Below, piece after piece: positions 13,186-64,000 of a stretch of DNA of 64,000 nt (positions are counted from its first letter, which is position 1; each line of letters begins with the position of its first letter). The notes beneath the pieces were generated by a model, which was not told the DNA's origin, ran no database searches, and saw only the letters and a list, made by a program, of their open reading frames with translations. The position numbers and the translations under genes are program-made. The DNA comes from an uncultured Elusimicrobia bacterium. Lineage in GTDB: Bacteria; Elusimicrobiota; Elusimicrobia; UBA1565; UBA9628. The stretch covers positions 1 through 64,000 of the forward strand of contig CAIRTQ010000033.1 in assembly GCA_903881545.1 (NCBI GenBank). Direction: 5' to 3'.

Positions 13186-13959
13186 CTAGGACAGAACATA
13201 GTCGCTCAACCGCCGCTTCTGTTTATTGAACACGGCGTAACCGATACCCGCGACCAGAAGGGCTAACGCCGTTAACGCCGCCATGTGTCGCCACGCGGGG
13301 AACCTCCCTTCCAATAGGCAATCCCGCGCCAGCCCGATGATATGCGCCATGGGATTGAAGCGGAGGAACCTTTGCCGATCCGCGCCGATGGCGGCGGCCG
13401 AATAGAAGACTGGGGTCAGGAAGAATCCTGCGGTCGTGATGATGCTCCAGATTCGTAGGAAATCAATGAAGCGCAACGCTAGAACGGACAACCCTAAGGC
13501 CAGGCCGGTGACGAACAGGAGTAGGACCGCGTCAATGAGTGGAAACGTCAGCCAGGACAGGCGGGGAACGGCCCCAAGGGCAATCAAAAAGACGAGCATC
13601 AAGACCAGCTCGATGGCATGCGAGATGGCCACGCTGCAGACGGTGGTAAGCACAAATAACTCCCGCGGCATGATGAAGTTCATCATGATACTCCGGCGGC
13701 TATTGAGGCTGCCCATGCCGGTGGTTGTCGCGGTGGTGAATAGGTTGAATTGGACCACGCCGATGAGGAGATAGCCGGGGTAGTTGGCCATGAATCCACC
13801 CATCCACCGGGTGAACAACATGTACAAGACGAGGAACATGAGTAAGGGGTTGAGCAGCGTCCAAAGGAAGCCCAGCAGGGTTGATTGCTCACGCAGCTTC
13901 CATTCGCAACGCGTCAGCTCGCGAAATTGATTGGCGTAGACGGCAAAATTGTCGATCAT
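13186..13959 (-). CDS. ABC-2 type transporter permease (Wzm/TagG-like)
   Basis: ELTRCEWKLREQSTLLGFLWTLLNPLLMFLVLYMLFT; six-TM ABC-2 layout; paired with the ATPase. Confidence 0.85.
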   Translation of the reverse strand: MIDNFAVYANQFRELTRCEWKLREQSTLLGFLWTLLNPLLMFLVLYMLFTRWMGGFMANYPGYLLIGVVQFNLFTTATTTGMGSLNSRRSIMMNFIMPRELFVLTTVCSVAISHAIELVLMLVFLIALGAVPRLSWLTFPLIDAVLLLFVTGLALGLSVLALRFIDFLRIWSIITTAGFFLTPVFYSAAAIGADRQRFLRFNPMAHIIGLARDCLLEGRFPAWRHMAALTALALLVAGIGYAVFNKQKRRLSDYVLS

Positions 13960-15047: not shown

Positions 15048-15112
15048 AGTGGGTTGCAGCCGCAATGCTCTCCGACGGTAATGGTTGGCGCGCAAATCTG
15101 CTATCCTGGTAA

Positions 15113-16972
15113 ATGATGCAGCAAATAGGCGCGCCTCCAAGAGTGCGGTGGGTGAGAATCGCGCTCTTGTTGGGTCTTTGGGCCGGGGCCATGTTGCTTT
15201 ATGCGGGCACGCTGCGCAATCCCCCGGTTTGGGATGACCATAACGTCCTTTTCGGGCAGGGCTTCCTCATGGATTGCCGCAACCTGCCCACGGCCGCCAA
15301 CCCAGCGAATTTTTTCAGGATTCTACCGGTTCGCAACGCGGCCCGGCCGGGCTGGCTCGTCTCCGCGCTTATGGATACCTGTCTGGGCGGCGGCCAGGTC
15401 GTGGTCTACCGCCTCGACAGCATCTTCTGGCATGCGGTCGGCGCCATGCTGGTCCTGGCCCTGGGCTGGAGCCTGAGCCAGAATCTCGTGGCTTCGTTGT
15501 TGGCGGGAGTCCTGTTCGCTGTCCATCCCGTGCACACCGAGACAGTCAACATCATTAGCTTCCGTGGCGACTTGCTGGCCCTGGCTTTTATGCTGCTGTC
15601 CTTCATCTTCTATCGCGAAGGCGATCGCCGCAACGGCTGGGCGCGGCGGGCCTGCTGGACCGCGTCCCTGGTGGGATTCTTCACGGCCTTGTCCGCCAAG
15701 GAGATGGCGATCACGCTGCCGCTCTTGCTCGTCATCGGGTGCCTGTACTTCCCGACGCCGCGTCCGCAGGCGGCGGCCGGTGTCAGGGTTTGGCCGCGCC
15801 GGGTGCTGTGGGGATCTTTCGCGCTGTTGGTGCCGCTCTACTTGGTTTTTCATACCTTGCGGTCGGGTTATGTGATGGCGGGGCATCAGGACATTTTGAG
15901 CTTCTGGGGCGCCAAGACCGCTGGGTCGCCGGCGCGGTCGCCGCGCCTGCGCTACGCGTCGAAGGACGGGATGTCGGCCAAGCTCGAGGACCCGCCCTGG
16001 CACCAGGTGTACGCCGACCGCCGATTGCGTTTTTTGACCATGTCGCGCGTCTTCGGTTCCTATTTAAGGCTCCTGGCGTGGCCCTGGCCGTTGCAAGGGG
16101 ATTATTCTCCCCCGGTGCTTCATTCGTGGCGCCATGCGGGCCTGCTCGCCTCCTGGGCGGCATGGCTATTGCTCTTCGCGGCCGCTTGGAAACTCCGGCA
16201 TCGGTTGCCCATGGCGGGTTTCGGCTTGATGTGGACGGCGACGGCCCTGCTCCCGGTCAGCGGCATGGTGGTCCTGCGCAACTTGCAGGCGGAAAGGTAT
16301 CTTTATGTGGCTTCGGCCGGGTTTTGCCTTGCTCTCGGCGCCCTCCTGGCATGGGCGGGCCGCCTTGGGGCTTGGCAGCGGCGCGTCTTTGTGACTGCGA
16401 CGGCGCTGCTTGTATTATCCTGGGTCAGCCTTACCTTGGCCCGCAACCGCGATTATCGCAGCGAACTGGCCTATTTCCGCGCCACGGAGAATGTGGACGG
16501 CAGCGTCGCGCGCGTTCATCTGGCCCTGGCGGGGGTCTATGAGGGACTGAGGCAGCCCGCCGCTGCGGAGGCTGAATTTCGCACCGCCCTGAGCTTGTGG
16601 CCGCGGTATCGCAAGGCCCAACTGCTCTTCGCCGGGTTTCTTATGGATAAGGGGCGCGCCCGGGAATCGGAGGCGTTGCTTCGTTCTGCGGGAGTGCTCT
16701 TTCCCGGCGACCCCGTGATTGCCCTGCGCCTTGGCGTCTGCTTGCTCGAGCAGGGCCGCGCGGGACCGGCCATGGAGCCTTTGCGGCAGGCGCTGGAAGA
16801 GACGAATTGGGCCTCGCCGCTGGCGCTTTACCACCTCGCTCTCGCTTGCCGCCAGGCCGGGCGGCAAGCGGAATTCAGGAAGCTTGAAGAGCGCTTGCGC
16901 CTGACTTCCCCGGAACTGGCCAATCTTGTTGGCGGTGGTAACCCGCGCCCTGTCAGGCCGACCTTCTTCTAG
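15113..16972 (+). CDS. TMTC-like/GT-C membrane glycosyltransferase with C-terminal TPR repeats
   Basis: RNPPVWDDHNVLF and GVLFAVHPVHTETVNIISFRGDLLALAFMLLSFIFYR resemble TMTC/DUF1736 proteins; C-terminal TPRs (AAAEAEFRTALSLWPRYRKA). Confidence 0.7.
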   Translation: MMQQIGAPPRVRWVRIALLLGLWAGAMLLYAGTLRNPPVWDDHNVLFGQGFLMDCRNLPTAANPANFFRILPVRNAARPGWLVSALMDTCLGGGQVVVYRLDSIFWHAVGAMLVLALGWSLSQNLVASLLAGVLFAVHPVHTETVNIISFRGDLLALAFMLLSFIFYREGDRRNGWARRACWTASLVGFFTALSAKEMAITLPLLLVIGCLYFPTPRPQAAAGVRVWPRRVLWGSFALLVPLYLVFHTLRSGYVMAGHQDILSFWGAKTAGSPARSPRLRYASKDGMSAKLEDPPWHQVYADRRLRFLTMSRVFGSYLRLLAWPWPLQGDYSPPVLHSWRHAGLLASWAAWLLLFAAAWKLRHRLPMAGFGLMWTATALLPVSGMVVLRNLQAERYLYVASAGFCLALGALLAWAGRLGAWQRRVFVTATALLVLSWVSLTLARNRDYRSELAYFRATENVDGSVARVHLALAGVYEGLRQPAAAEAEFRTALSLWPRYRKAQLLFAGFLMDKGRARESEALLRSAGVLFPGDPVIALRLGVCLLEQGRAGPAMEPLRQALEETNWASPLALYHLALACRQAGRQAEFRKLEERLRLTSPELANLVGGGNPRPVRPTFF

Positions 16973-46628: not shown

Positions 46629-47777
46629 CTACGGCCGGCGCAGGGCTCTATGGTGCTCCTGGACGATTTGTCCGTCGCACTTGTGCCGATGATCCACGTG
46701 CGCTTCCCAATCATTGATGCTGGTGGCATTATGGCGTTGACAGGTCCCTAGGCAGCCGCCACCAGCCCGCAAGCTGCGTCGGATGGCGCGGTAGGCGGGT
46801 CCGTTCCAAATTTCCGCGAAGCTCTTATCGGCCAGCGATTCCTTGAAAGATCCAATCAAATCGCAGGGTAGTATCCTGCCTTCGGGATCCACCACCACCT
46901 GGTGCCACGGCTCGTTGCACCGGGCCGGCGTCCGGGCCGGTGCCGGCCCTTCACCGAACTTTTGCGGGAGGCTGATCTCCATGCCCACCTCCTGTGCCAC
47001 GCTGCGCGCCTCGTCTATGGCGCGGTTGGCCAAGTCCTGCTTGAAGTAGAGCGAAAGGTATTTCTGTGCTGCTTCGCAGATGAAGAAGTAGGTGGCCAGT
47101 ACCCTGTCCGCCCCCAGTTCCTTGGCCAAGCGCACGAAATCCGGCAGCTTGTCCGCATTGAGCGTGGTCATCACGAATTTGAAGTGCACCCGTACTTGGT
47201 CCGTGCCTTGGCGCATCTCCATGAGTTGTTTGATGTTCTTCATGACTCGCTCAAAGGACCAGTACCTCATCATGAGTTCGTGCGTCGACTGGTCGGGCGC
47301 GTGGAGGGACAGCTGGAGCGTGTAGCGGCTTGCCGAGTTCACTATCAGGTCGCATTTCTCATGCGTGAGATACGAGGCGTTGGTGGCGATGCGTTTCTCT
47401 ACATGCGGGAATCGGCCATTGAGATAGCCCAAGAGCGCGGGCGCCTCGGATAGCCCCAATACCTCGCCCGAACCAGAGAAGGTCAGCGTCGCCGCGCGTT
47501 GGAGGACCGGCGTCATCGATGAGTCGAATCGAGCCAGCCAGTCGTCCAACCGGAACGACTCGAAGCCGTCGCCTTGGGAGCAGAACACGCAGCCAGCGTT
47601 GCAGGGCGCATGGATCTGAAGACGCACTGTCTGCGGCGTGCTGGCCAAGATGATGCGGCCGGCTTCGTGCTCCTGCCGGTTGAGATCCACATTCTCCGTT
47701 TGGAGCTGTTCGAGCCGGCGACGCCGCCGGCCGGCGGCGGGCTCGGGCGATCGGGCGGCGGAGGGCATGGCCTTCAT
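46629..47777 (-). CDS. SPASM-type radical SAM protein with SGSGE motif
   Basis: LQIHAPCNAGCVFCSQGDGFESF; TFSGSGEVLGLSEAP; CNEPWHQVVVDPEGRILPCDLIGSFKESLADKSFAEIWNGPAYRAIRRSLRAGGGCLGTCQRHN. Start trimmed from the track ORF. Confidence 0.86.
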   Translation of the reverse strand: MKAMPSAARSPEPAAGRRRRRLEQLQTENVDLNRQEHEAGRIILASTPQTVRLQIHAPCNAGCVFCSQGDGFESFRLDDWLARFDSSMTPVLQRAATLTFSGSGEVLGLSEAPALLGYLNGRFPHVEKRIATNASYLTHEKCDLIVNSASRYTLQLSLHAPDQSTHELMMRYWSFERVMKNIKQLMEMRQGTDQVRVHFKFVMTTLNADKLPDFVRLAKELGADRVLATYFFICEAAQKYLSLYFKQDLANRAIDEARSVAQEVGMEISLPQKFGEGPAPARTPARCNEPWHQVVVDPEGRILPCDLIGSFKESLADKSFAEIWNGPAYRAIRRSLRAGGGCLGTCQRHNATSINDWEAHVDHRHKCDGQIVQEHHRALRRP

Positions 47778-49741
47778 CGCGCGCAGAGCGGGGCGGGTTG
47801 AGCCGCTTCGCCCCCGGCAGTCTCGGATTTGACCAGGCTCATCGCCAGGCGCAGACGTTTGGCCAGCAGGTGCAGAGTGTTCGGGTCCGTCGCCCGTTCG
47901 CCGGCCCAGAAGATGTCGAAATGATCCCCACTCCATTCGATGCGGGCCTTTTCCCCGGTCATGGCTTTGAGGAACGAGGCTGCTCGAAACAGGAAACGCT
48001 CGAGGCTCTGCGGCGCTTGACGGGAGCCCGCCAAGAACTCATCCCAGGTTAAGCCCGCGTCCAAGCGGCTTCGGAGTCCCTCCCAGACCGCCGCTGGGTC
48101 TGCCTTGCCGGCGGCCGCAATCCGGTCGGCCTTGGCCAGGGCCCGGGCGGCGTTCCGGAAGCTCTCCAGATGCGGGAGAGCCCGGATTAGATGCTTGAGC
48201 GTCGGCCCATGGTAAAGGTCCAACTCCAGGTATTCCAAGTAATTCTGCAGGGCCGCTAAGGGCCGGCCTGCGAAATGGTGGTACGCCGCTAGGTTGGAGA
48301 GATGATCCAGGTCAAGGGCGCCGTTGACCCCCTTGTAAGCGTCTATGCCCAGAGTGATGGCCAGGGACCGGAACTTTTTGTAGCGTTCCAAACGCACCGG
48401 ATAGGTATTGGTCCCATCCTGGGACTCCCAGTAGAGATTGTGCGTTGACTCTTCGGAGCGCTGGCGAATTCCCAACTCCTCCTGGTGGTCGATCAGATAG
48501 CTGTGCGCCTCCAGGCTTGTGAAGGTGGCGCTGGCGTAGACCCGGTCCAAGTTGCTTCGGTTGCGGCGCAGGAAATCCAGAGTCATCTGCGCGTCTTCCT
48601 CCGTCTCCCCGGGAAAGCCGAACATGAAGTTGCCGGTCACGATGATGCCGGCATCATGGGTGTCCCGCAACACCCGTTCGGCCACGTCGGGAGAGTAGTT
48701 TTTGTTCATGGCCTTGAGCACGCGCTCCGAGCCGCTCTCGATTCCGTAGATGATGTCGTGGCAGTTGGCGGCGCGTAGATCTTTCAGGACTTCCAGCGTC
48801 ATCTCCGGGCGTATGACCGCGTTGATCTTCCATCCGATCAGATCGTTCTTCCACCGGTCTTCGGCCACGGCTGCGCTTACGAGCCGACTAAACTTCTGCA
48901 GGGCCCGGACGTCGCCGTTGGCTGTAATGTCGTAGAACTCCCTATGGCGACGGCTAGGGAACAGGCGCAGGTTGTGCATGACCTCCGCGAAGATGCGGTC
49001 TCCGCCCATATGCGCATAGCCGGGCCAGAAGGAGTGCGCGCTGCAGAACCGGCACTGCCAGACGCACCCTCGGCTGGCCGCGATCGGGATCCGCTCCGGG
49101 TCGGTATAGAGCTCCATGGGAAATCCCGTGAAGTCCGCGAATGGGATATCGTCTAGATTGCGTACCGGCACAGCCGCGCCGGAGGTGAACGGTGCTCCGT
49201 CGCGCCAAACCCAGGCCCCCGGCAGCGGTTCTAGCTCGCCCGTGCTGTCAAAGCGCTTCAATATCTGGGGGAATACCACGTCGCCCGCGCCTTGCACCAC
49301 CATGTCCACGCAGGGCTCTCCGAGTAGGGCTCTGATCTTGTTACCAAAATAGAAATAGGGCCCCCCAAGGATAATCTTGACCTTGGGATCGGCGGCCTTG
49401 AGGCGCCGCGCCAGCTCCAGCGCGGCCAGATGGGAGCCGCTTTGCACAGAAATGCCAATGACGCGGGCGCCGGTCTTGAGGATGTCCTCCAAGAAGCGCT
49501 CCACCTGCTGAGAATTATCCTGGAAGAAGGTGGCAACGAACGCCGGCTGGTTCCAGAAATGGAACTGCTCCCAGACCCAGAGGCTTTCATATTTCTTCAC
49601 CCGTTCCTTCCAGAGCAGGATGTTGAGGTCAAACACCGCCGGCTCGAAACCAGCCGCGCGAGCGCAACCCGCCAATTGGGCTAAGCCCAAGGGTGGGTCT
49701 GTGATGCCCCAGACTGGAGGCTGGATCAAGGCGACTTTCAT
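47774..49741 (-). CDS. B12-binding domain radical SAM protein with C-terminal extension
   Basis: MKVALIQPPVWGITDPPLGLAQLAGCARAAGFEPAVFDLN; ASRGCVWQCRFCSAHSFW; GIESGSERVLKAMNK; WESQDGTNTYPVRLERYKKF. Confidence 0.9.
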   Translation of the reverse strand: MKVALIQPPVWGITDPPLGLAQLAGCARAAGFEPAVFDLNILLWKERVKKYESLWVWEQFHFWNQPAFVATFFQDNSQQVERFLEDILKTGARVIGISVQSGSHLAALELARRLKAADPKVKIILGGPYFYFGNKIRALLGEPCVDMVVQGAGDVVFPQILKRFDSTGELEPLPGAWVWRDGAPFTSGAAVPVRNLDDIPFADFTGFPMELYTDPERIPIAASRGCVWQCRFCSAHSFWPGYAHMGGDRIFAEVMHNLRLFPSRRHREFYDITANGDVRALQKFSRLVSAAVAEDRWKNDLIGWKINAVIRPEMTLEVLKDLRAANCHDIIYGIESGSERVLKAMNKNYSPDVAERVLRDTHDAGIIVTGNFMFGFPGETEEDAQMTLDFLRRNRSNLDRVYASATFTSLEAHSYLIDHQEELGIRQRSEESTHNLYWESQDGTNTYPVRLERYKKFRSLAITLGIDAYKGVNGALDLDHLSNLAAYHHFAGRPLAALQNYLEYLELDLYHGPTLKHLIRALPHLESFRNAARALAKADRIAAAGKADPAAVWEGLRSRLDAGLTWDEFLAGSRQAPQSLERFLFRAASFLKAMTGEKARIEWSGDHFDIFWAGERATDPNTLHLLAKRLRLAMSLVKSETAGGEAAQPAPLCAR

Positions 49742-51841: not shown

Positions 51842-54800
51842 TTAGGCCTCCACCGCCAGCTTGCGGGCCGCCGCCAGGATGGCGGCGCGAGCTTGGGGGC
51901 GGTTGGTGATATGGCAAGATAAGTCATCCACGTTGTAGCCCGCGTAGCGTGCGCAGCGGCGGCACCAGGGATGCGGCTTGCCTTGCGCCATGCTGCAGCG
52001 CAGGCTGCGATAGAAAGGGGAATTCCATATGGCCCCGATTTCCGAATCTTTGATGTTCCCGATGTGCTCGCCCCAGCGACAGCAAGGCAGCACCGAGCCC
52101 TGAAGTTCCACATAGATGTGCTGCCAGGGCTCAGTGCAGAGCGACTGCGCGGCCGCGCCGCCGCCAAACAGGGGGGGCAGGTCCACGCGGAAGGGCCGGT
52201 CCGGGGCGCGTTGGCGCAATTGATCTGCCGTCCGGGCAGCTGTCTGCAGGGCCGCGTTGGCCTGGCCCTGATGGAAGAAGCAGGAGAGCGGGAGTTGCTT
52301 GGGCGTGAAGACCTCCACATGCAGGCCGCGCACGCTTTGCGCGCCCAAGTCCCAGGCCAGACGGATGAAGTCGGGGAGGTCCGCAATGTTGCGGCTATTG
52401 AGCACGTTGACGAGTTCCAGGTGCAGCCGGCCGCTCGCTTGGCTGCGGTCGCGCCATTTGGATAAGCTCCGCAAGTTGTCGATAATCTCCTGGAAACGGC
52501 CTTTGAGACCGGTCAGTTCTTGATGCAGGCCAGCGCGGGAAGAGTGCAAGGAGACTTGAACCGCGTAGCGTCCCTGCAACAGGCGTTCCACCACCGAGGG
52601 CCGCAGGGGTGTTCCGTTGGTGGTCAATATTTTTTCGGTCTCGGGCAAGGATCTGTTGATGTAATCAAGGAACGCTTCGGCTTTCGGCATGAGCAAGAGC
52701 TCCCCGAAGCCGGTAAAGGTGATCTTCTGCGCGTTGCGCAGGAAAGAGCCCATCCGGACCTCGAAGAAATCTCGGTAGGTCTCCAAGGTGAATCGGGGAT
52801 AATCGCCTTCGGGACAGAAGATGCAGCGGGCGTTGCAGGCCTGGTGCGCGCCGAGGGTCACCAGCACCGGCGTCGAGCGCAGGCGCTGCTCCCCCGCCGC
52901 TGTTTCGCGCTGGTTGAGGACCATGTTGAATCCGCGCGGAGAGAACTCTTGCGGCGCCGGCGGAAACGCCGGCCCGCGCGCTGGCCGGCCGGCCTTATCG
53001 TAGCAACGGCGCAGGGCTTCCCGGAGCGTTTCATCTTGGGATTCTAGGCGCCAGGAGCGGCGATAGCAGAGGATGGCGCGGGGCAGGTCCGCCTCCCTCT
53101 CGTAGTACGCGCCCAGCAGAAGCCACTTGTCCGGCTTGCTACGGAGCACTCCTGAAGTCTCAGGCAGGCCCAAGGCCAGGGCCAGGCGGCAAAATTCTTC
53201 ATAGCGGCGGAAGCGTTCCGGATAGTCGTTGCGACCGCCATCTGATTTCCAGTAAAGGTGATGCTCCGCTCCGGTGATGCCAAACTCCTTCGGATGGTTG
53301 TAAAGCCGCGTGTTCTTGTCGATGACGCAGAACGATTGGCTGGCCAGGACCGAATCCACGAACGGCCGCGCTCGCTTGAGAAGGTCTAGCGTCCGGCTGA
53401 AGTCCCGCTTGGTCTCACCCGGGATGCCGAACATGACGTTGATCTGCGCCTTGATCCCTGCCGCGTGAGCGGCGCGCAATGCGCGCAATGCCTGGGCGTT
53501 GGTGAAGCGCTTGTTCATGGCCGCGCGCACTTTGGGCGATCCGGATTCGATGCCAAAGCCTAGCCAGCGGCAGCCCGCGCGCGCCATCTTGGCCAGCAGC
53601 CGCTCATCCATGCCGGGCACCACGATGGCCTGGCCTTCCCAGGTCACGGGCAGGCCTTGCGCGATGACCAGGTCGCAGAAGCGCTCGAGCTCGCGCAATC
53701 TGCCGTTGAGCAATGAGCCGATGAAATAGAAGTGGTTGACCTGCGGATATAGCTGCATCTGATGGCTGATCTCAGCGAAGATTCGTTCCCCGCTCATGGA
53801 GCGGAATCGGGTCCAGAACTGCCACTCGCTGCAAAAATGGCAGGAGCGGGCGCAGCCGCGGCTGTCCATGATCTCCAGGCGCCGCGGGTTCCGGTAGCGG
53901 CCCTCGCGCATTTGCGCAGTGAAGTCGGAGTAGTCCGGGAAGGGTAGGCGGTCCAGGTCCATGATGGGTGCGCGGTCGCCGCCGTCCACGATGCCGGAAG
54001 GCCCGCGGGCCACCAGTCCGGGCAGTCCCAAAATGGATTTCCCAGCGCGAAGCTGGTCCAATAGCTCGCGCAAGGTCTCCTCACCTTCGCCGACGGCTAC
54101 CGCGTCCACGCGCGGGTCAAGCGCTAGGTCTTGGCCCCGTTGTTCCCGCGCGCAGCGCGGCCCGCCGAAGACCACCAGCCGGGACGGATCGGCGTGCTTG
54201 ATCCGCCCCGCGATTTCGAGGCTGGCGAGTACCGAAGTCGTGTGGGTCGTGAATCCGATCACCTTGGCGCCGCTGGCCAGGATGCGGTTGACGCAAGAGT
54301 TCACCGCGCTGTCCTGGGATTCCATGAGACGCCCCACCAAGGCGGGATTCTCCCAAAATGAATAGAGGTCTTTGTCGTCCCAGACGGCCCGTTGCCCGGC
54401 CGCGGCATGATAGAGCTCGTTGTTGAGATCGAAGCAGGCAGCCTCGTGGCCATTCTGCCGCGCATAGGCGGCTAAGGCGGCCAGGGAGAAAGGGGGGCAT
54501 TCCTGGCCCCAGCCCGGACACTGCACCAAGGCGACTTGGGCGGTACGCTTCTTCGGCGTGGGCGCGGCAACGGCTGAATCGTCTGATGCCACACGGAGGG
54601 GAGTATCCTTCTTGCAGCCTAAGGCCACGATCCGGTCCAGGACTGGATTGGCGGTACAGAGCAGCCAGCAGTGGCAGCGGCCGCGCGCGACATTGTCCCT
54701 TTCCTGGCGCGCTCGAGGCGACTGCCAGACTTCGTCGAACGGGGCCTCACGCACACTGCCGACGGTACGTTGTTTGTTGACCGGGCAGAAGAACAGGCTG

Positions 54801-55750
54801 CCCTCCGGGTCCAGCATGGCGTAGCGCTGACCAGCCAGGCAATCCGGGAAGAACCGTCGCGGCATCCGAATGTACTCCTTGAGGTAATGCCAGTAGAGGA
54901 TCCGGCTCAACAGCCCGACGGATTCGGATTCGCGTCCTTGCAGCAGACGGGGCAAGATGCCTTCGCGCCGGCATATGTCGTCCATGACCAGATCAATCTG
55001 GCCGGTGATCGCCGCGATCTGTGCCGGTTTCCAGAGGAAGGCCGGAGCCTCGGGAACCCCCGTATGGTTGACCGCCATCTGCGCCCCGAACCAAACGCCC
55101 TGCTCCGTCGCGAAGCGATAGGCCGGCCATAGTTGCCGATAGTTGTGTGGAGTGATGGTTAAATTGAAACTGAATGTAATGTCAGGGAATTCTCGACGCA
55201 ACATTCCCATCGATTCGACCAGCCCTGCGAAGGCCCCGGAGCGGCCGCGGATCAGGTCATGCGCGCCCCCCACGCCGTCCAAGGAAGACCCCAGCCATAG
55301 CCGTTGAACTCCGGCCGCGCGCAGCTGCGTCAAGCGGCGGCGCAACAGCGTGGGATCGCCGAAATGGGAAAGCACTCCCAGGGAAGCCTTGGGGAAGCGC
55401 CGGCAGAGCAGGGCCGCGATCTCAGGCAGGTCCTGGCGCAGGCAGGGTTCGCCTCCGGTCAGGACGATCGTCTCTACGCCGTCCAGCGTCCTTGCCTCGC
55501 CGAGGATGTGCTCCAATTCGGCGGCACCCAATTCTCGGCCGGTCGCCGCAGGTTCGGCGCGATGCCGGCGCCAGTGATGGCACATGAGGCAGCGCATATC
55601 GCAGCGCCGGGTCAGTTCCAGATGCAGTTCTCGGATGGGAGATGGGATGCTCCCCTCGTCTTTCAGCCGCGCCTCGCCGCGCCGGGCGATTTCCGCCAAG
55701 AGGCTCTCGGTCCAGCGCAGTGCGTCCAAGGCCAAGGCGCGTCGGCTCAT
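51842..55750 (-). CDS. Triple-module fusion: rSAM/SPASM + B12-binding rSAM + rSAM/SPASM (about 1302 aa)
   Basis: Three CxxxCxxC motifs in one open frame: LELTRRCDMRCLMCHHW; DSRGCARSCHFCSEWQFW (after VALVQCPGWGQECPPFSLAALAAYARQNGHEAACFDLN); GAHQACNARCIFCPEGD; terminal SPASM CTEPWQHIYVELQGSVLPCCRWGEHIGNIKDSEIGAIWNSPFYRSLRCSM. Start at ATG 55750 overlaps upstream stop. Confidence 0.85.
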   Translation of the reverse strand: MSRRALALDALRWTESLLAEIARRGEARLKDEGSIPSPIRELHLELTRRCDMRCLMCHHWRRHRAEPAATGRELGAAELEHILGEARTLDGVETIVLTGGEPCLRQDLPEIAALLCRRFPKASLGVLSHFGDPTLLRRRLTQLRAAGVQRLWLGSSLDGVGGAHDLIRGRSGAFAGLVESMGMLRREFPDITFSFNLTITPHNYRQLWPAYRFATEQGVWFGAQMAVNHTGVPEAPAFLWKPAQIAAITGQIDLVMDDICRREGILPRLLQGRESESVGLLSRILYWHYLKEYIRMPRRFFPDCLAGQRYAMLDPEGSLFFCPVNKQRTVGSVREAPFDEVWQSPRARQERDNVARGRCHCWLLCTANPVLDRIVALGCKKDTPLRVASDDSAVAAPTPKKRTAQVALVQCPGWGQECPPFSLAALAAYARQNGHEAACFDLNNELYHAAAGQRAVWDDKDLYSFWENPALVGRLMESQDSAVNSCVNRILASGAKVIGFTTHTTSVLASLEIAGRIKHADPSRLVVFGGPRCAREQRGQDLALDPRVDAVAVGEGEETLRELLDQLRAGKSILGLPGLVARGPSGIVDGGDRAPIMDLDRLPFPDYSDFTAQMREGRYRNPRRLEIMDSRGCARSCHFCSEWQFWTRFRSMSGERIFAEISHQMQLYPQVNHFYFIGSLLNGRLRELERFCDLVIAQGLPVTWEGQAIVVPGMDERLLAKMARAGCRWLGFGIESGSPKVRAAMNKRFTNAQALRALRAAHAAGIKAQINVMFGIPGETKRDFSRTLDLLKRARPFVDSVLASQSFCVIDKNTRLYNHPKEFGITGAEHHLYWKSDGGRNDYPERFRRYEEFCRLALALGLPETSGVLRSKPDKWLLLGAYYEREADLPRAILCYRRSWRLESQDETLREALRRCYDKAGRPARGPAFPPAPQEFSPRGFNMVLNQRETAAGEQRLRSTPVLVTLGAHQACNARCIFCPEGDYPRFTLETYRDFFEVRMGSFLRNAQKITFTGFGELLLMPKAEAFLDYINRSLPETEKILTTNGTPLRPSVVERLLQGRYAVQVSLHSSRAGLHQELTGLKGRFQEIIDNLRSLSKWRDRSQASGRLHLELVNVLNSRNIADLPDFIRLAWDLGAQSVRGLHVEVFTPKQLPLSCFFHQGQANAALQTAARTADQLRQRAPDRPFRVDLPPLFGGGAAAQSLCTEPWQHIYVELQGSVLPCCRWGEHIGNIKDSEIGAIWNSPFYRSLRCSMAQGKPHPWCRRCARYAGYNVDDLSCHITNRPQARAAILAAARKLAVEA

Positions 55751-56913
55751 GCGGGACCTCTGCGGAAGAGCTGTTCGAGCGCGGATGTCGGCCCCAGGCA
55801 CCACTTGCGCAGCAGAAGGTTCATGTCGGCCTCCGCATCCCGCGCCGCGGGCGGCGGTTCGGTAGGCGGAAAGGTCAGGATATCGGTGGCGATGAGCAGG
55901 CGCTGGTTGAGTTGGCGCAGACGCAGGCAATAGTCGAATACCGCGGCGGCCCAGGTCTGGTAGCGTTCATCGAGGCCGCCGGCCAGGGCCGCGGCGTTGC
56001 GCCGCAGCATCCAGCAAGACGAATCCAGGTAATGCGCGCATTCGCGGTGGCTCCGCCCGGCGCTCAGACGAGCCGAGGCCAATTGTCTCTGAGAGCCAGC
56101 GCGGGATGGCTGGCCCCGCACCGCGCCCACCGCGGCCAGGGGGGCCTCTCCTTCCAGATATTCTTTCATGCGCTCCAGGCTCGCGGGGATCAGACCGGTG
56201 CCGCCCCGCACCGACAGCACGCATCGGTAACGCGCGCGCTGGAGTGCCGCGTTCCAGCCGACGATGCCGCCGCGTCCCCGGGGCACGGTGATCCATTCGC
56301 TGGGGAAGGGCAGCCGGTCCAGGCGCCTACGCAGATTCTGGTCTGAGCCCAGGACCAGGACGCTGATGCCGTCGCGGCCCGCGTCATCGAATTCCCGGGA
56401 GGGGCGCGGCTGGGCCGGCAAGAAGCGGCCTCCCAGTTTTTCGCAGGCCTGAACTGCGGTCCGAGCCATGACCCAGTCGTGCGGCTGTGTGCCCTGGTGG
56501 TCTGGCCATGGGTCGGAGAGCAGGACCAGGTCCGAAAGCTGGTTCATCCCCGGAATCTGCTCGCGCCAAGCCGGCGAAAAATTCTCACGGCGCAGGAGGC
56601 AAACGCGCGGAGTCGTGGGGGACCATCCGGCCACGCGATGTAGGTTCTCGATACTGGCCGCCTCGCCGACGGCCAGTATGACCTCGACCCGCGCGTCGAA
56701 AAGGGCTTCTTTGACGTGCTCGAAGAAATCCCTTTGCGCGCGAGGCGGGAAACGCATCCCGCCACGGCAGAGTCCGGGGCCGCCCGGGTCTAGTGCCAGC
56801 GCGACGCCCCACCGGGCGCCGAGCTCGTGCAGGAGCTCCGAGGTCCGCTGGCCGTCGCCGGTCTTCAATTCGTTGAGCCACCCCGGCACCAGCGCCAGCA
56901 CCCTATACGACAT
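55747..56913 (-). CDS. Glycosyltransferase-related protein (GT2-like C-terminal half)
   Basis: MSYRVLALVPGWLNELKTGDGQRTSELLHELGARWGVALALD...; PRGRGGIVGWNAALQRARYRCVLSVRGGTGLIPASLERM; SCWMLRRNAAALAGGLDERYQTWAAAVFDYCLRLRQLNQRLL. Track ORF start (57324) rejected. Confidence 0.65.
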   Translation of the reverse strand: MSYRVLALVPGWLNELKTGDGQRTSELLHELGARWGVALALDPGGPGLCRGGMRFPPRAQRDFFEHVKEALFDARVEVILAVGEAASIENLHRVAGWSPTTPRVCLLRRENFSPAWREQIPGMNQLSDLVLLSDPWPDHQGTQPHDWVMARTAVQACEKLGGRFLPAQPRPSREFDDAGRDGISVLVLGSDQNLRRRLDRLPFPSEWITVPRGRGGIVGWNAALQRARYRCVLSVRGGTGLIPASLERMKEYLEGEAPLAAVGAVRGQPSRAGSQRQLASARLSAGRSHRECAHYLDSSCWMLRRNAAALAGGLDERYQTWAAAVFDYCLRLRQLNQRLLIATDILTFPPTEPPPAARDAEADMNLLLRKWCLGPTSALEQLFRRGPA

Positions 56914-58153
56914 CGGCTTTCTCCTGAGGCGAGCGCGCCAGCACTTCATCGTACACCGCGCCCAGGCGCGGGGCGAGCTGCGACCAATCATAGCGGCGGC
57001 GCACCAGCTCCACCCCCCGGGCTCCGAGTTCGCGGCGCAGAGGGGCAGAGTCGAGCAGGCGCAGTACCTGAGCGGCGAAGAGCGCCGGGGAGTCGGCTGA
57101 AAGGACGTCGCGGTCGGGCGTGAGTTCGAGGCCGCGTAGGGAACGCCGCGTTGCCACCACCGGCAGGCCCGAGGCCAGAGCCTCCAGAATCTTGCCCTTG
57201 ATGCCCTCTCCCAAGCGTACAGGCGCCACAAACACGGTGGCTTGCTCCAGGTACGGCTTGACGTCCGGGACCGTCCCCGTGACCGTGACGCCGGGGATAT
57301 CCCGGGCCAAGTTAAGCACCGCATTGGTGGGGCTTGAGCCCACGGCGAAGAACCGCGCCTGAGGCCGCACTTTTAGGATCGCGGGCCAGATCTTCCGGCA
57401 GAAAAAGACCACCGCGTCTTCGTTGGGGTAGTGGGGGTAGTGGCCTACGTAAAGCAGGGTGGGCGCCGCGCCGGTGGGGGGCTCTGGGGCCGGGCGGAAA
57501 TGCGTCGTGTCCACGCCCGTAGGGACCACTTGGATTTTGTGGGCCGCGATGACTTTGGAAAGGCGGTGATGGTCCGTGGGAGTCATGACCACGACCCGGT
57601 CGAACCAAGTCCCGGCCTGGCGCACGAATGCCACGCGGCGGCGCCATTGCCGGATCTGTAGGAATTTGCGCCAGCCCACCATCTCCCGGAAGTAGGAGCC
57701 GAAGAACGATATGGAACCGGCGTCGTGCTGAGTCCAGATGCGGGGCACTCCGGCGAGCTGGCGAGCGTAGAGCGCCGTGAGGTCGAACTCGGCGTGCACC
57801 AGGTCCGGCCGCTCTTCTGCGACGATCTCCGCTACCCTCTGAGCCGTCTGCGGGTCGAAAAAGCGGGCGACGTCATCGGGGAGGGCCAAACGGTCGACGC
57901 GAAGCGAGCGGGGTTCCGGAGGCAGCGTGAGCCAATGGATGCGCTCGAAGATGGGCCGCAAGTAGTGGTGCTCCCACAGGAGCTCTTGCGCCGTTTGATG
58001 CGCGTCGCGCGGGATGTCGCGCGGGAGGAAGGTGGCCAGGGAGAAACGGAACCGTTGGCCCAGAAGCTGGCACAAGGTGTGGATGCGCTTGCATCCACCA
58101 TCGAAGGGGTAGGGCGGGGAAGGCGTCAAAAGCAGCACATGCGGCTTCATCAT
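56903..58153 (-). CDS. Family 1/4 glycosyltransferase (GT-B)
   Basis: KPHVLLLTPSPPYPFDGGCKRIHTLCQLL; VVPTGVDTTHFRPAPE; VFVAPVRLGEGIKGKILEALASGLPVVATRRSLRGLEL. Confidence 0.9.
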   Translation of the reverse strand: MMKPHVLLLTPSPPYPFDGGCKRIHTLCQLLGQRFRFSLATFLPRDIPRDAHQTAQELLWEHHYLRPIFERIHWLTLPPEPRSLRVDRLALPDDVARFFDPQTAQRVAEIVAEERPDLVHAEFDLTALYARQLAGVPRIWTQHDAGSISFFGSYFREMVGWRKFLQIRQWRRRVAFVRQAGTWFDRVVVMTPTDHHRLSKVIAAHKIQVVPTGVDTTHFRPAPEPPTGAAPTLLYVGHYPHYPNEDAVVFFCRKIWPAILKVRPQARFFAVGSSPTNAVLNLARDIPGVTVTGTVPDVKPYLEQATVFVAPVRLGEGIKGKILEALASGLPVVATRRSLRGLELTPDRDVLSADSPALFAAQVLRLLDSAPLRRELGARGVELVRRRYDWSQLAPRLGAVYDEVLARSPQEKADVV

Positions 58154-60480
58154 GCGCTCCGCTGCACCGAGTCGTAGCAAGGATGATATTCGCGGTGAAA
58201 ATCCTTGCCGTTGCCCATATAATCGTTGTGTGACAGCCGAGTCCGGCAGCGGTGGTCGGTCCATACGGCCGTATCCCGGCAGCTGGAAAAGGTATTGCCT
58301 GTCGCGCGCAGGCGCGATCTTCGTAATGCGAGTACGCCGTTCTCATTGTCGGTGAACACCGCTCCGTCCATTCGGATGCGGCAATCATCCTCGGCCATGA
58401 TGGCGGTCTTGGCTTGGCGGCTGAACGATATCCCCCGTAGGCGCGCCCGCGAGGAATGGCTGCAGCGGATCGCCTCGCGGTTATCCTGCCAGGAGCCACC
58501 CATGGCCTCGATCTGCGAGGAATTCTGAGTCCATACGCCGGTGCCGTTGCCTTCGATTCGGACCCCGCAAAGGAGGGCCCGCGACCGTTGCAGAGTCTCC
58601 ATGCCCACGTTGTTGCGTTCCAAGCGGCAGCCCCTGAGGCGTAGACGCGCCCGGCCCGAGGCAAAGATTGCGGACTGGCCAGCGTGATCGAGCCAACGGC
58701 TCGAACGGCCGAGGAAGGTCGAGTGACCGAGCATCGTCGCCGCTGAGCCGCGACAGCGGGAATAGGTCCCGCAGAAGTCGGATACGACGGCGCAACCTTC
58801 AGTGAGAATGTCCGTGTTGCAATCGCAGGCCCGGCAGCGCCGCAGGCGCACGCGGGCATCGTCGTGCGCCCAGACTGCGGCCTTGCTGGATTCAGTGAAG
58901 GAGCAGTCATGCAAGACAGCGGAGGCGCCTCCTCCCCAAGCGGTGGCGCCCTGTCCGCCTTGGAAATCACAATGGCGAAACTCGGCCCGGCAGAAGTCCA
59001 CGCCCAGAGCGGCAAAGTCGGCAGCGGGATCGAAACGGGCGTGGCGGATGCTGGCCCGGGAGCGGCCGAGCAGTACGATGCCGCCCCAGGGGGCCCCAGT
59101 GAAGTGCACTTTGTGGCCCGGTTCGCCGGCGACATCCAACTCTCCATAGACCATTAGCGCGCAGCGGCCGCGGCGGGGGAGCTGAGCCCTGGTCCCAAAA
59201 GCCAACCGGTCTGCCGCCCAGCCCGCAGCGGCTGTTGTTTCCGACCGGACCAGCGTCCCCGGCAAGATGCTCAGCCTGCATCCGGCCGCAATCACCATGG
59301 TTTCGGAAAGAGTGACCTCACCTTCCCAAACGATGTCGCGGCCGCGATGCGGAGCGGGACATCCAGCGTCCAGCCGTAGCCATGTGCCTTCAATCCGAGC
59401 CCGCAAGGCGCGGCAACGGCGCGGGAAGGCCAAGCCACATGCGCGATACGCTACAGTAAGGAATCTAAGCGTATGCCGGATGGCGGGCCGCCGCAGAGCA
59501 ATCCATGCTTCTTTGGCCCGGTCGCGGATCCAGGCGGCGGTCTGGAGGGTGCGGTCGCGCAGAAAGCGATAGGCGTCGCGTAGAGCAATGCAGGCATCGA
59601 ATATCCGGTCTCGGGTCCAGGCGCCGGACTGGAGACAGGCGTCCCGCAGGGACCGGTAGGCATCGCGCAGAATAATGCAGGCATCGAATATCCGGTCTCG
59701 GAGCCAAGCCCGGGTCTTCAGAAAACTGTCGCGCAGGAAACGGCAGGCATCAATGGTGCGGTCGCGAGTCCAGGCGCAGGTCTGAAGAAAACGGTCGCGC
59801 AGGAAGCGGTAGGCGTCGCGCAGGGCCAGTCCGGCGTCAATGATGCGGTCGCGGGTCCAGGCGGCGGTCTGGAGGGTGCGGTCGCGCAGGAAATGGCATG
59901 CATCAATGATGCGGTCGCGAGTCCAGGCGCAGGTCTGAAGAAAACGGTCGCGCAGAAAGCGGTAGGCGTCACGTAGTGCTAGTCCGGCGTCGATGATGCG
60001 GTCGCGGGTCCAGGCGGCGGTCTTCAGGCAGAACCCCCGGATTATTTCGGCGCATAGCAATCCAAGCACGACCGTTGAGACAATCCCTATGCCGCAGTGG
60101 CAGAGCCTACGGAATGGGCCTTGCAGGCTTATCCAGCGCCCTTGTCCACGCCGGAAGGACTCGACGCGGCCCGCGATGCATGAGCTGGGAACCGCCTTGT
60201 CCAGGATGATGGACCGATCTCCCTTCGTCCAAAAGACATGACCACCCGTACGGTCGGCCTTCCAAACGATGCGATGCGCCACGAAATTGCGGCGCTCTAT
60301 ATCGACATAGACGACGATGTCTCCCAGGAGCAATTGGTTGGGAGCGATGCGGCGAAAGCGCAGGGCGTCTCCGGATCGCAATAGAAACCGCATGGAGTTT
60401 CCGGAGAACGGCATCTCTCGCTCCGCGTAGTGGCCACGCGGGTCTTGTGGCTCATCCGAATATATAGGAGCGGTGGTCAT
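58150..60480 (-). CDS. S26 signal-peptidase-like N-terminus + TM + tandem amphipathic repeats + beta-helix domain
   Basis: MPFSGNSMRFLLRSGDALRFRRIAPNQLLLGDIVVYVDIERRNFVAHRIVWK...FWTKGD (S26-like SGxSM, GDIVVY, HRI, TKGD); TM GIVSTVVLGLLCAEI; repeats AWTRDRIIDAGLALRDAYRFLRDRFLQTC; C-terminal beta-helix rungs. Confidence 0.75.
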   Translation of the reverse strand: MTTAPIYSDEPQDPRGHYAEREMPFSGNSMRFLLRSGDALRFRRIAPNQLLLGDIVVYVDIERRNFVAHRIVWKADRTGGHVFWTKGDRSIILDKAVPSSCIAGRVESFRRGQGRWISLQGPFRRLCHCGIGIVSTVVLGLLCAEIIRGFCLKTAAWTRDRIIDAGLALRDAYRFLRDRFLQTCAWTRDRIIDACHFLRDRTLQTAAWTRDRIIDAGLALRDAYRFLRDRFLQTCAWTRDRTIDACRFLRDSFLKTRAWLRDRIFDACIILRDAYRSLRDACLQSGAWTRDRIFDACIALRDAYRFLRDRTLQTAAWIRDRAKEAWIALRRPAIRHTLRFLTVAYRACGLAFPRRCRALRARIEGTWLRLDAGCPAPHRGRDIVWEGEVTLSETMVIAAGCRLSILPGTLVRSETTAAAGWAADRLAFGTRAQLPRRGRCALMVYGELDVAGEPGHKVHFTGAPWGGIVLLGRSRASIRHARFDPAADFAALGVDFCRAEFRHCDFQGGQGATAWGGGASAVLHDCSFTESSKAAVWAHDDARVRLRRCRACDCNTDILTEGCAVVSDFCGTYSRCRGSAATMLGHSTFLGRSSRWLDHAGQSAIFASGRARLRLRGCRLERNNVGMETLQRSRALLCGVRIEGNGTGVWTQNSSQIEAMGGSWQDNREAIRCSHSSRARLRGISFSRQAKTAIMAEDDCRIRMDGAVFTDNENGVLALRRSRLRATGNTFSSCRDTAVWTDHRCRTRLSHNDYMGNGKDFHREYHPCYDSVQRSA
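59485..60030 (-). repeat. In-frame tandem repeat encoding about 29/22-aa alternating amphipathic units (51 aa/153 nt superunit)
   Basis: Near-identical TGATGCGGTCGCGGGTCCAGGCGGCGGTCT copies at about 59841 and about 59994 (153 nt apart), with further diverged copies. Confidence 0.85.
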
Positions 60481-60655: not shown

Positions 60656-61111
60656 TTACTTGGAAGACCCCGTCAGATTCTGCCGGAATGAGTTCTTCAG
60701 CAATCGCCAAAGCTGGCTGCAATTCACTCCGGAGGCCCGGAGCGTCCCGGCGACCTCATCGCCCGCTTTGAAATCCAGATTGGCGCGCGCCTCGGTCCCG
60801 CTCTTTCCGTTCTGGAGATCGACATGGCTTGACCGCCAATGGAGGTCGCGAATGTTGTGCCGCAACGGCAGTAAGTTGAGGTCGTCGATTGAGAGCCAAT
60901 CGCGGGCCTCGATGAGGTGGCTCGGTGAGAAGAGCCACAGGCTTTCGTGGACGCGCGCGCCGTCGCGGTTGATATACTCAGAAAAGAAAAGGTCTTCGAT
61001 CGGTTCCGGGGAGATGCCTTCCGCATATTCCAGGACTTGCTGTAATCTTTGGTGCACATCCTTGGCGACGACTCCCAGCGAACGGAGATATTCCTCTGGA
61101 TTGGTTTTCAT
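60656..61111 (-). CDS. Hypothetical protein, possibly PH-like fold
   Basis: 151 aa with SD AAGGAG and strong upstream promoter; WLFSPSHLIEARDWLSIDDLNLLPLRHNIRDLHWRSSHVDLQNGKSGTEARANLDFKAGDEVAGTLRASGVNCSQLWRLL. Confidence 0.65.
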   Translation of the reverse strand: MKTNPEEYLRSLGVVAKDVHQRLQQVLEYAEGISPEPIEDLFFSEYINRDGARVHESLWLFSPSHLIEARDWLSIDDLNLLPLRHNIRDLHWRSSHVDLQNGKSGTEARANLDFKAGDEVAGTLRASGVNCSQLWRLLKNSFRQNLTGSSK

Positions 61112-61184: not shown

Positions 61185-61283
61185 CTACACGAACATCGTG
61201 GAAACGCCCAACTTGGTGGTCAATTTGAATTTCTTCAAGATTGGTTTTTTATAGATTTTCTTTGGCTCGGGTTTCTTCTTCAT
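61185..61283 (-). CDS. Candidate RiPP precursor peptide, 32 aa: MKKKPEPKKIYKKPILKKFKLTTKLGVSTMFV
   Basis: Uninterrupted ATG..TAG; SD AAGGAG 6 nt upstream of ATG; starts 12 nt after the stop of the GT2-PqqD gene; YxxPxL motif (YKKPIL) as in lasso-peptide leaders bound by PqqD/RRE domains. Missing from the ORF track. Confidence 0.6.
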   Translation of the reverse strand: MKKKPEPKKIYKKPILKKFKLTTKLGVSTMFV

Positions 61284-61295
61284 CTGGCGCTCCTT

Positions 61296-62483
61296 CTATC
61301 TTTGTGATAAGAAAGCGATCAGGTGGTCGTCTTTCAACTCCTGCAGCAAGGTGTCGATGTCTTTTCGTGCTTCCTCTGATTGCGCCGCGCCGGATGCTTC
61401 GACTTCTTTGATTATCTCCTCCTCGGTCTTTCCTTCCGACAAAAGCTCCCAGACCCTCGCGCCGACGCCGTGCAACTGATAACCGAAGCCGCTCTGCAGG
61501 TTGACGGCCTTGACGTCCCCGGTCCTGCCCCACCGCCAAACGAGCCGCTTCGGAACGAACGTCAAAGGGGCGAAAGCCCGCCTTTTCCCAAACCATTCTT
61601 CCAGAGAGCCGTATATCCAGGTGAGCAATCCCATGAAGGAAAAGATCAGCCGGAAAGAATAGACGCTCAGGTTCTTGGCGCGCTCCACTTGGAAGACGCT
61701 TCTTCCAGCCAGAAGGGCATTCTTGAACGTGTCGGCCAGCATGCGCCGCCCGGACAGCGACAGACCGATTATGCCTTCGTATTTTCTTATGAGGCAGTAC
61801 TGCCAATAGACATAATGGAGGAATACTTCCGGCAATTGCGCGATCTTATCGCGATGTTTGTGAAAGACGACGGCGTTGCGCATATGCCGCAGTTGATGTC
61901 CCTTCAGATTGATGCGCCATATGAGGTCGGTGTCTTCTCCTGCGGCGAAATATTCGTCGAAAGAACCGACCTGGCTGAATAGTTCTCGGCGGCAGGCTAG
62001 GTTGCAGGTGGCGAACAGTGGCTCGGTGAAATAGTTCTCTTCGTTGATGTCATCGTTCCCGTTGTTCTGGTTCTGGTGCTTTTGGAACCAGTAGAAGGCC
62101 TTCTCGATGGTGTTGGCAGGCCGGTAGGATCGCGTGCTTCCGCCGCAGCCGCCGACATTCGGGGTGGAGAATCCTTTGACCAAATTCTTTATCCAGTGCC
62201 TGCCTACCACGCAATCGGCATCCGTGAAGGCGATGATGTTCCCGGAGGCGATCTTCAGGCCTGCATTCCGGGCTGCGCTGCGGCCTTTTCTGGGCTCGAA
62301 TACATAGCGTACCGGGTATCTTTTTATGATTTCGGCGCTCGAATCCGTCGAGCGATTATCGATGATGATGAATTCCAGAAGTTCCTTGGGATAATCAAGC
62401 GCCATCAAGGAATCCAGGCAGAAAGGCAGCATCTCCTCCTCATTATAAACAGGAATTAGGATGCTGACGGTCGGCAGGGGCAT
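61296..62483 (-). CDS. Family 2 glycosyltransferase with C-terminal PqqD domain
   Basis: GT2: VSILIPVYNEEEMLPFCLDSLMALDYPKELLEFIIIDNRSTDSS; C-term PqqD: RLVWRWGRTGDVKAVNLQSGFGYQLHGVGARVWELLSEGKTEEEIIKEVEASGAAQSEEARKDIDTLLQELKDDHLI. Confidence 0.85.
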   Translation of the reverse strand: MPLPTVSILIPVYNEEEMLPFCLDSLMALDYPKELLEFIIIDNRSTDSSAEIIKRYPVRYVFEPRKGRSAARNAGLKIASGNIIAFTDADCVVGRHWIKNLVKGFSTPNVGGCGGSTRSYRPANTIEKAFYWFQKHQNQNNGNDDINEENYFTEPLFATCNLACRRELFSQVGSFDEYFAAGEDTDLIWRINLKGHQLRHMRNAVVFHKHRDKIAQLPEVFLHYVYWQYCLIRKYEGIIGLSLSGRRMLADTFKNALLAGRSVFQVERAKNLSVYSFRLIFSFMGLLTWIYGSLEEWFGKRRAFAPLTFVPKRLVWRWGRTGDVKAVNLQSGFGYQLHGVGARVWELLSEGKTEEEIIKEVEASGAAQSEEARKDIDTLLQELKDDHLIAFLSQR

Positions 62484-62576: not shown

Positions 62577-63974
62577 CTAGTGGACCGTGGGAAAGCCGAT
62601 GGTGCTGCACATCAGGCTCTGCTGCAAGAGTTCATACAACGGCTTTCCCCACTTCCTGATGAAGATGTCTCTATTCGTTTTTCTATAGTCCAGCAAGACT
62701 CCGGGCGCATATCCTTTCGAGCCGTAATGATGGATGAACACATCATTGACGCAAAAGGAGCGGAACCCGGCGATCCTTGCCCGCAGGCAGTAATCGTAAT
62801 CCTCAAAAGGTCCCCAGGCGAACTGTTCGTCCAAGAGCCCGACGGCTTTGACCACTTCCCTCTTGATGAGAAGGCAAAAGCCCGTTAGTGCGAAGACTTC
62901 GAACCAATCGCCCAGATGCGCTAGGTGGCGCATCCGCGACCAGCGGATCATGTCTGCCAGAGTGCGATACGGGCCGGGGGCTGTCATTTGCACCCCGTAG
63001 ATGGAATTCGTGCGGGGGCCTACCAATCCGATGGCGCGGCTGCTCTGCGCGCAGGCAATCATCCGGTCAAGCCACAAGGGCGTGACCACGGTGTCGTTAT
63101 TGAGCAAGAGTAGGTATTTGCCCCGGGCCTTCTTGATTCCCTGGTTGCAACCCGCGGCAAAACCGCGGTTATCCGGGTTAAGGATGACCGTGGCTCCGGG
63201 GACGGATTCCAGATACTTCGCGGTGCCGTCCGTCGAGCCATTGTCTATCAGCAGGAGCTCGTAGGGTTTATGGGTGTATTTCACGATACTCTTGATGCAG
63301 CGCTTGGAATACTGCAGGCCGTTGTGATTGAGGATTATAATGCTGGTTAAATCATTCTTGGCATGCGTTTCCGGTGTCGGCCCTATGTCTGCGAATAAGT
63401 CCGGCAACCGCTGTAGGGCGAGCCGGCCCGAAGGCTTGCTCAGCAGTGGGACGGTCTCTACGCGAAGCGTGGGGTTTTCCTGGTGCAGGAGGCCCTTGTC
63501 TTCTGCGGTCTCGGTGATGACAAGATCCGCCTGCGCGTACGCAGTCAGAAGCTGGAGGGCGAACCCCTCCTGCTGAAACAGGCGGGAGAGCGCAGCGCGG
63601 GGCAGACGGTGGTAGATGTCCAAAGTCCCGGCAAAGACCACGATCTTGCTATGAGGGGCGAGGGCCCTCACATCCCGCATCAAGGCGCTCATCTGTACGG
63701 ATTCTCTGACAAAGATGGCGACGGCTGCGAAGGCATGCCGCAGAAGATTCCGGTGCAGTAGGCGTCGCATGTCGGGGCCATCAAGCAGGCGTATCCCCGC
63801 GTCGCTCAGCTGACGTCTGTATGCCGGATTATTGAAGAACGAATGCAGCGGCGAGATGAGATAGACGTCGTAGCGACGCAGCAGCATCCTCGCTGCGGCT
63901 TCGATGTGATCGGCCGGCTCCGAGGCAAGAAGCAGTATTTTGGCTTTCGTGGCACGCCGTTTCGATGTTTTCAT
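62577..63974 (-). CDS. Family 2 glycosyltransferase with N-terminal extension
   Basis: TSIIILNHNGLQYSKRCIKSIVKYTHKPYELLLIDNGSTDGTAKYLESV; FAAGCNQGIKKARGKYLLLLNNDTVV; FAWGPFEDYDYCLRARIAGF; extra N-terminal domain of about 200 aa. Confidence 0.87.
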   Translation of the reverse strand: MKTSKRRATKAKILLLASEPADHIEAAARMLLRRYDVYLISPLHSFFNNPAYRRQLSDAGIRLLDGPDMRRLLHRNLLRHAFAAVAIFVRESVQMSALMRDVRALAPHSKIVVFAGTLDIYHRLPRAALSRLFQQEGFALQLLTAYAQADLVITETAEDKGLLHQENPTLRVETVPLLSKPSGRLALQRLPDLFADIGPTPETHAKNDLTSIIILNHNGLQYSKRCIKSIVKYTHKPYELLLIDNGSTDGTAKYLESVPGATVILNPDNRGFAAGCNQGIKKARGKYLLLLNNDTVVTPLWLDRMIACAQSSRAIGLVGPRTNSIYGVQMTAPGPYRTLADMIRWSRMRHLAHLGDWFEVFALTGFCLLIKREVVKAVGLLDEQFAWGPFEDYDYCLRARIAGFRSFCVNDVFIHHYGSKGYAPGVLLDYRKTNRDIFIRKWGKPLYELLQQSLMCSTIGFPTVH

Positions 63975-64000
63975 TCTAGGCGATTTGGTCCGTCATCCGA

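Follow-up and report, generated by a model that had tools for sequence, protein, structure and literature searches.

The window analysed here is a stretch of 64,000 nucleotides from an uncultured Elusimicrobia bacterium (positions 1 to 64,000 of contig CAIRTQ010000033.1, assembly GCA_903881545.1; the contig is C33 below). Near its right-hand end it encodes a single intact frame of 395 aa that joins a glycosyltransferase family 2 (GT2) domain to a PqqD/RRE domain, followed directly by a very small gene:

61185–61283 (−), candidate precursor peptide of 32 aa, MKKKPEPKKIYKKPILKKFKLTTKLGVSTMFV, of the YxxPxL family, with an AAGGAG site
61290–61295 (−), AAGGAG, ribosome-binding site for the peptide gene, immediately 3' of the TAG stop of the fusion
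61296–62483 (−), GT2-PqqD fusion, 395 aa (PF00535, E 8.8e-33; PF05402, E 1.8e-11)
61317–61505 (−), C-terminal PqqD/RRE domain of the fusion, residues 327–389 (Pfam PF05402, E 1.8e-11)
61968–62465 (−), GT2 (GT-A) catalytic domain of the fusion, residues 7–172 (Pfam PF00535, E 8.8e-33)
63976–64000 (−), 3' end of another GT2-PqqD fusion (the second on the contig), with the remainder past the end of the window

An earlier note on this DNA, made from the letters alone, had read the gene as a GT2 with a C-terminal PqqD domain, and the profile searches bear this out: besides the PF00535 match, the C-terminus scores 44.7 bits against PF05402, above the curated Pfam cut-off of 23.4. Residues D88 and D90 (DxD), and then E183-D184, are invariant in all six aligned fusions, and with PF00535 above its cut-off and the DxD present the protein belongs to the GT2 family. 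Solved GT2 relatives include GalNAc-transferases and SunS, which are peptide or protein glycosyltransferases, although polysaccharide synthases score higher. An AlphaFold model of the whole fusion, made from a 5-row alignment, reached a pLDDT of 51.6 and was left unused.

GT2-PqqD fusions are rare and patchy in distribution, with seven found in six genomes of two phyla. With the C-terminal halves as query, 294 genomes of the phylum yielded two close fusions, in genomes G103 and G077, and one divergent copy in G149, and a full-length query against 278 genomes of the phylum returned the same set. The second fusion on the window's own contig (complete at C33:63976–65184, L005:3976–5184; 402 aa) is 42–45% identical to the first. 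Two of 334 Omnitrophota genomes (G538 and G613) carry the fusion; a C-terminal search of this phylum at 1e-12 returned discrete PqqDs only, and the fusions were seen by reading the loci and by the full-length search. Both Pfam cut-offs are passed by all six fusions scanned (window, neighbouring copy, G103, G077, G149 and G538), with PF05402 scores of 32–55 bits in the five others; the G613 fusion, split across two contig ends, is not among the six. Such recurrence across two phyla, with every scanned copy above both cut-offs, shows that the architecture is neither a chance product nor an assembly chimera. A contig scan with an alignment of four fusions, the patterns of which are generic GT2 motifs, gave 80 loci, none with a fused PqqD. 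At 1e-70 no fusion was found in 198 genomes from the phylum of a Deltaproteobacteria MAG or in 201 genomes from the phylum of a Dehalococcoidales MAG, each a weak negative from a set without a positive control, and none was found in plasmids at 1e-30.

The 32-aa peptide that the earlier note had proposed for structure prediction is present as the ORF at 61185–61283 (−), which has the AAGGAG site in front of it and starts 12 bp past the TAG stop of the fusion. It contains the motif Y11-x-x-P14-x-L16 and lacks Cys. The corresponding peptide of G103 (MEKKKAKKKVYKKPVLKKYQLPKKIGATAIFI) likewise starts 12 bp past the fusion stop, that of G077 (MEKKNNEKKKMYKKPLLKKYKLGNKLSVSPTMFLTAC) lies less than 200 bp from the fusion stop, and that of G149 (MKKKLSYSKPKLIKYRRIKKAPVFLGS) is encoded between a discrete PqqD gene and the fusion, immediately ahead of the latter. 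The two Omnitrophota genomes have several peptides per cassette (e.g., MKKFKNFKSEKKSYKKPKLLKFSKVKRIQGGSIVDVPSVPI), with a constant or similar leader and a variable tail, in the following arrays:

L132:6297–7334, precursor array, Omnitrophota, leaders alike and tails variable
L165:10355–11276, precursor array, Omnitrophota, leaders alike and tails variable

Arrays of this kind, with a constant leader and variable tails, are typical of RiPPs, and the general description of a RiPP (a conserved leader and a variable core linked to enzymes) applies to the system. Some precursor copies in the G538 array appear degenerate, with stops.

In all six fusion genomes, the YxxPxL peptide family is confined to the cassette. 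A peptide model built from three sequences matches 3 of 340 genomes of the phylum, which are its own source genomes and those with close fusions, the informative part being the absence elsewhere; a 13-sequence model run against the six whole genomes matches inside the cassettes only. Tyr11, Pro14 and Leu16 are invariant in 13 of 13 peptides, and Lys13 and Lys18 nearly so. Differences between the peptide genes are in excess at the third codon position, as expected of translated sequence, with just 20 codons compared. The aligned candidate acceptors are Ser28/Thr29 (window), Thr28 (G103) and Ser29 (G077), and in most Omnitrophota peptides a Ser lies one residue farther from the motif. The spacing between motif and core Ser/Thr is not fixed, at 17 or 18 residues in most peptides and another value in G149.

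In a search with the profile of the fused domain, the PDB chains TbiB1, TfuB1, PbaB1 (9x90) and LppB (9x8z) rank above PqqD itself, and each of these four was solved in complex with a leader. The predicted domain, with pLDDT above 90 over most of its length, has the strict RRE order of elements (E10–14, E20–24, E30–33, H36–45, H50–59, H66–81), and its best matches are TbiB1–leader complexes first (Foldseek 1.2e-4; VIA Z 11.9, rmsd 2.4, 83–84 aligned), with TfuB1 also among the best fold matches. A second look with VIA gave further RRE-bearing RiPP enzymes at Z 5–8, and only the top rows are relied on. The fused domain models as a lasso/LPP-type RRE. The nearest curated family to the C-terminus of the fusion is that of the lasso PqqD chaperones, at 31.5 bits and under the cut-off of 70.

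In the solved LppB complex, the residues that touch the leader are known, and Asp70 hydrogen-bonds the leader Tyr (PMC13381572). These contact residues map onto the fused RREs without gaps. Asp occupies the Asp70 position in all seven fused RREs (Asp375 in the window) and in four discrete relatives, whereas PbaB1, the leader of which has Trp, has Gln there, and the hydrophobic leader pocket is largely kept. The first copy in the window has Gly at the position of LppB Tyr60 and His at that of Asn33; the second fusion retains Tyr at position 60. Peptide and pocket therefore agree on a Tyr-type recognition, which, short of an assay, is the strongest evidence for a working pair. Both refuting conditions named in the earlier note point the other way: the C-terminus matches PqqD, and immediately past the fusion there is a peptide with the motif that lasso/LPP-type RREs bind, which accompanies the fusion in both phyla. 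Structure prediction with the 32-aa peptide, as the note had suggested, speaks neither for nor against binding: in an AlphaFold2 model with the TAG read through, behind which the peptide is in frame, the RRE fold is well modelled, and the peptide is an undocked coil of low pLDDT in what is a single-chain model with a short linker.

The fusion and its peptide stand among further genes of glycan and radical SAM (rSAM) type:

12367–13959 (−), ATPase and permease genes of an ABC-2 exporter, 48 kb away from the GT2-PqqD fusion
47774–49741 (−), B12-binding radical SAM protein, with homologues in the G103 and G077 cassettes
51842–55930 (−), 1362-aa protein with three stretches that match radical SAM, plus two SPASM domains and a B12-binding domain
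58150–60480 (−), 776-aa protein with an N-terminal archaeal-type SpI-like domain (TIGR02228), repeats and a C-terminal right-handed beta-helix (PF13229)
62577–63974 (−), N-extended GT2, 465 aa, between both GT2-PqqD genes (PF00535, E 1.5e-27)

Past the peptide gene lie, in turn, a 151-aa ORF, the gene of the 776-aa protein, a GT4 gene and then a run of radical SAM genes. The 151-aa ORF (60656–61111), directly behind the peptide gene, has no Pfam or NCBIfam match and no homologue seen in the other cassettes. Homologues of the N-extended GT2 adjoin the fusion in G077 and G149 and lie in the same cluster in G103. The middle part of the 1362-aa protein, a triple rSAM fusion with the B12-binding domain in the middle, has homologues in the B12-rSAMs that the G103 and G077 cassettes encode. 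Between 21115 and 55930 radical SAM genes are dense, and many are of two alternating small types (one CNYRCPYCWW-like and STM4011-related, the other SPASM), apparently tandem-duplicated; homologues of the CNYRCPYCWW-like type are single-copy in the cassettes of G103 and G077. A pair homologous to the ABC-2 exporter adjoins the SpI-like gene in G149, and the exporter of the window is tied to the fusion only by this analogy. The ORF at 13956–15140, directly before the ABC-2 permease and ATPase and 46 kb from the fusion, contains GGGKS and SDDT motifs; its match to an HprK-related family is weak (TIGR04355, 0.0037), and the arrangement resembles the kinase/exporter block of G538.

The 776-aa protein supplies a candidate leader peptidase. 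In the LPP pathway, the peptidase LppS requires Ser/His/Asp and does not cut the leader off unless the precursor is presented by an RRE (PMC13381572). The SpI-like domain at 58150–60480 matches TIGR02228 under the cut-off (2.3e-9; the beta-helix part matches PF13229 at 1.9e-20), and alignment places in it the Ser, His and Asp required by LppS. Homologues are present in all six cassettes, joined to differing parts: a beta-helix in the window, NTP_transf_5 in G538 and, on reading of the sequence, a methyltransferase-like part in G077. These homologues retain the three residues except in G149 (L131:1–903), where Cys replaces the catalytic Ser (GKCM); the contig piece of G103 ends before the Asp, which was read on the adjoining locus L129. 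The repeats of 58150–60480 are about 30 residues long (AWTRDRIIDACxxLRD...), an odd scaffold for a possible leader peptidase.

The Omnitrophota cassettes also encode an HprK-related kinase (clear in G538, TIGR04352, 7.3e-21; by homology in G613), an ABC exporter and a SPASM rSAM, and only in these two cassettes do an HprK kinase and an NTP transferase score strongly. By gene content, these cassettes combine most of the LPP core set with the fusion. Discrete PqqDs are encoded in the cassettes of G103, G077, G149, G538 and G613, and those of G103, G149 and G538 adjoin the peptide or lie close to it; on the window's contig the PF05402 search found no discrete PqqD, only the two fused copies.

The window thus resembles the LPP system (LppA/LppB/LppS) in its YxxP leader, its lasso-type RRE with the Tyr-binding Asp, its archaeal-type SpI peptidase with Ser/His/Asp and its location among glycan genes, and the Omnitrophota cassettes add the HprK-related kinase and NTP_transf_5 (PMC13381572). 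It differs in that the RRE is fused to a GT2 and rSAM enzymes are present, whereas the window lacks a discrete RRE, found in G103, G077, G149 and G538, and neither a confident HprK kinase nor an NTP transferase was found there; the window leader also lacks the VLxHQxIxFETxxS extension, so that of the LPP motif YxxPxVLxHQxIxFETxxS only YxxPxL is common, and its core is far shorter (PMC13381572). The lasso B1 proteins TbiB1 and TfuB1 are the closest solved structures to the RRE domain and share its leader motif, but they are discrete proteins. Identity as a lasso peptide was set aside, as neither a macrolactam synthetase (cyclase) nor a B2 protease was found among the Pfam-scanned cassette genes, a subset of the ORFs.

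For the GT2 part, the nearest curated NCBIfam is MftF of mycofactocin (TIGR03965; 158.9 bits, under the cut-off of 280), which likewise has a peptide-derived substrate and an rSAM partner; the match covers MftF positions 74–289 only and includes no fused PqqD. The glycocin enzyme SunS (TIGR04195) is also a GT2 that glycosylates a ribosomal peptide, but the fusion scores 29.7 bits against a cut-off of 350, and the acceptor of SunS is Cys, which the window precursor lacks. By the tests applied, the window system falls outside the LPP, mycofactocin and glycocin families, and lasso membership is without support; it would work in the manner of an LPP/lasso-type leader system that carries another enzyme.

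The pairing of an RRE with a glycosyltransferase is less unprecedented than the earlier note implied, since RRE-Finder listed such fusions in 2020, predicted to be RiPP-related (PMC7470986), and its 2025 update lists them with PF00535 (PMC12710340). These share the architecture of the window fusion, and the text of the entries, on which alone the comparison is made, gives architecture only, with no precursor family, cassette or RRE subtype (PMC7470986; PMC12710340). The note's remark on the many rSAMs holds: 24 window ORFs of more than 250 aa contain CxxxCxxC, and all eight carriers scanned match PF04055. No characterised RRE-glycosyltransferase fusion was found in the literature searched, which excludes most subscription papers. 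New here are the cassette and the precursor family; the idea of an RRE-glycosyltransferase fusion was already known.

We infer that the fusion is a leader-guided GT2 of a RiPP pathway that glycosylates the very short core of the 32-aa precursor, with a probability of roughly two in three. The PqqD match, the linked motif-bearing peptide and the kept YxxPxL pocket support the leader-guided peptide glycosylation proposed in the earlier note, for which binding and sugar transfer are the predicted steps. The peptide downstream of the fusion would be the precursor; the lasso/LPP-type RRE would bind its Y11-x-x-P14-x-L16 leader and present the short C-terminal core to the GT2, which would move a sugar from an activated donor onto a core hydroxyl, predicted to be that of Ser28 or Thr29. 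The second fusion copy would add a further sugar or take another intermediate as its substrate, and the neighbouring GT2 and GT4 enzymes may extend the sugar on the peptide. Changes to the core may come from the B12-rSAM enzymes, and the leader would be cut off by the SpI-like domain once the RRE has presented it, in an order of steps that is likewise putative. Weighing against the peptide as acceptor, the locus is rich in polysaccharide-type glycosyltransferases, and the GT2 could act on a glycan. Also counting against the main reading are the Gly and His in the RRE of the window's first copy, the variable spacing of the core Ser/Thr, and strong HprK kinase and NTP transferase scores in the two Omnitrophota cassettes alone.

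It is unlikely, though worth weighing, that the RRE is functional but the GT2, like MftF in mycofactocin, adds sugar to a late peptide-derived product or an rSAM-modified residue instead of the unmodified peptide. An RRE fused to the enzyme implies a substrate that still has its leader, whereas MftF acts once the leader is removed. MftF is nonetheless the best NCBIfam relative of the GT2, and three of the phylum's four cassettes encode B12-rSAMs that resemble RiPP C-methyltransferases, although the type of rSAM varies among cassettes.

Distinctly improbable is a vestigial or structural PqqD in an enzyme that makes surface polysaccharide, with the peptide an unrelated neighbour served by discrete PqqDs. 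All seven fused copies, from both phyla, retain the pocket residues and among them the Asp that binds Tyr, and the window contig keeps the precursor even though its only PqqDs are the two fused ones; in favour of this explanation are the neighbouring GT2s, GT4 and beta-helix proteins, and the discrete PqqDs that G103, G149 and G538 encode beside the peptide or close to it. Very improbable is a third reading, in which the fused RRE chiefly hands the peptide on to the SpI-like peptidase or an rSAM and the GT2 is a passenger, since the GT2 fusion is kept despite a discrete PqqD in G103, G077, G149, G538 and G613, even if LppB does present its precursor to the SpI peptidase LppS (PMC13381572) and the window has no discrete RRE able to do so.

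A leader-guided peptide glycosyltransferase could belong to a larger scheme, which we offer as a rather unlikely speculation: a new RiPP class in which a short leader-guided glycopeptide would serve as primer or anchor of a cell-surface glycan, the RRE-GT2 placing the first sugars on the 32-aa precursor, the glycosyltransferases extending them, the rSAMs modifying, the SpI trimming and the ABC-2 pair exporting the product.

If the leader-guided reading is true, a leader-recognising glycosyltransferase and its adjoining 32-aa substrate would form a ready-made testable pair. Targeted peptide modification with an engineered glycosyltransferase is reportedly, by its title, the subject of a 2024 paper in ACS Catal. 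that PMC12710340 cites. The RRE-guided repertoire would gain a modification, and the link of LPP-like RiPPs to surface-glycan loci, left open in the study of the LPP pathway (PMC13381572), would become directly testable.
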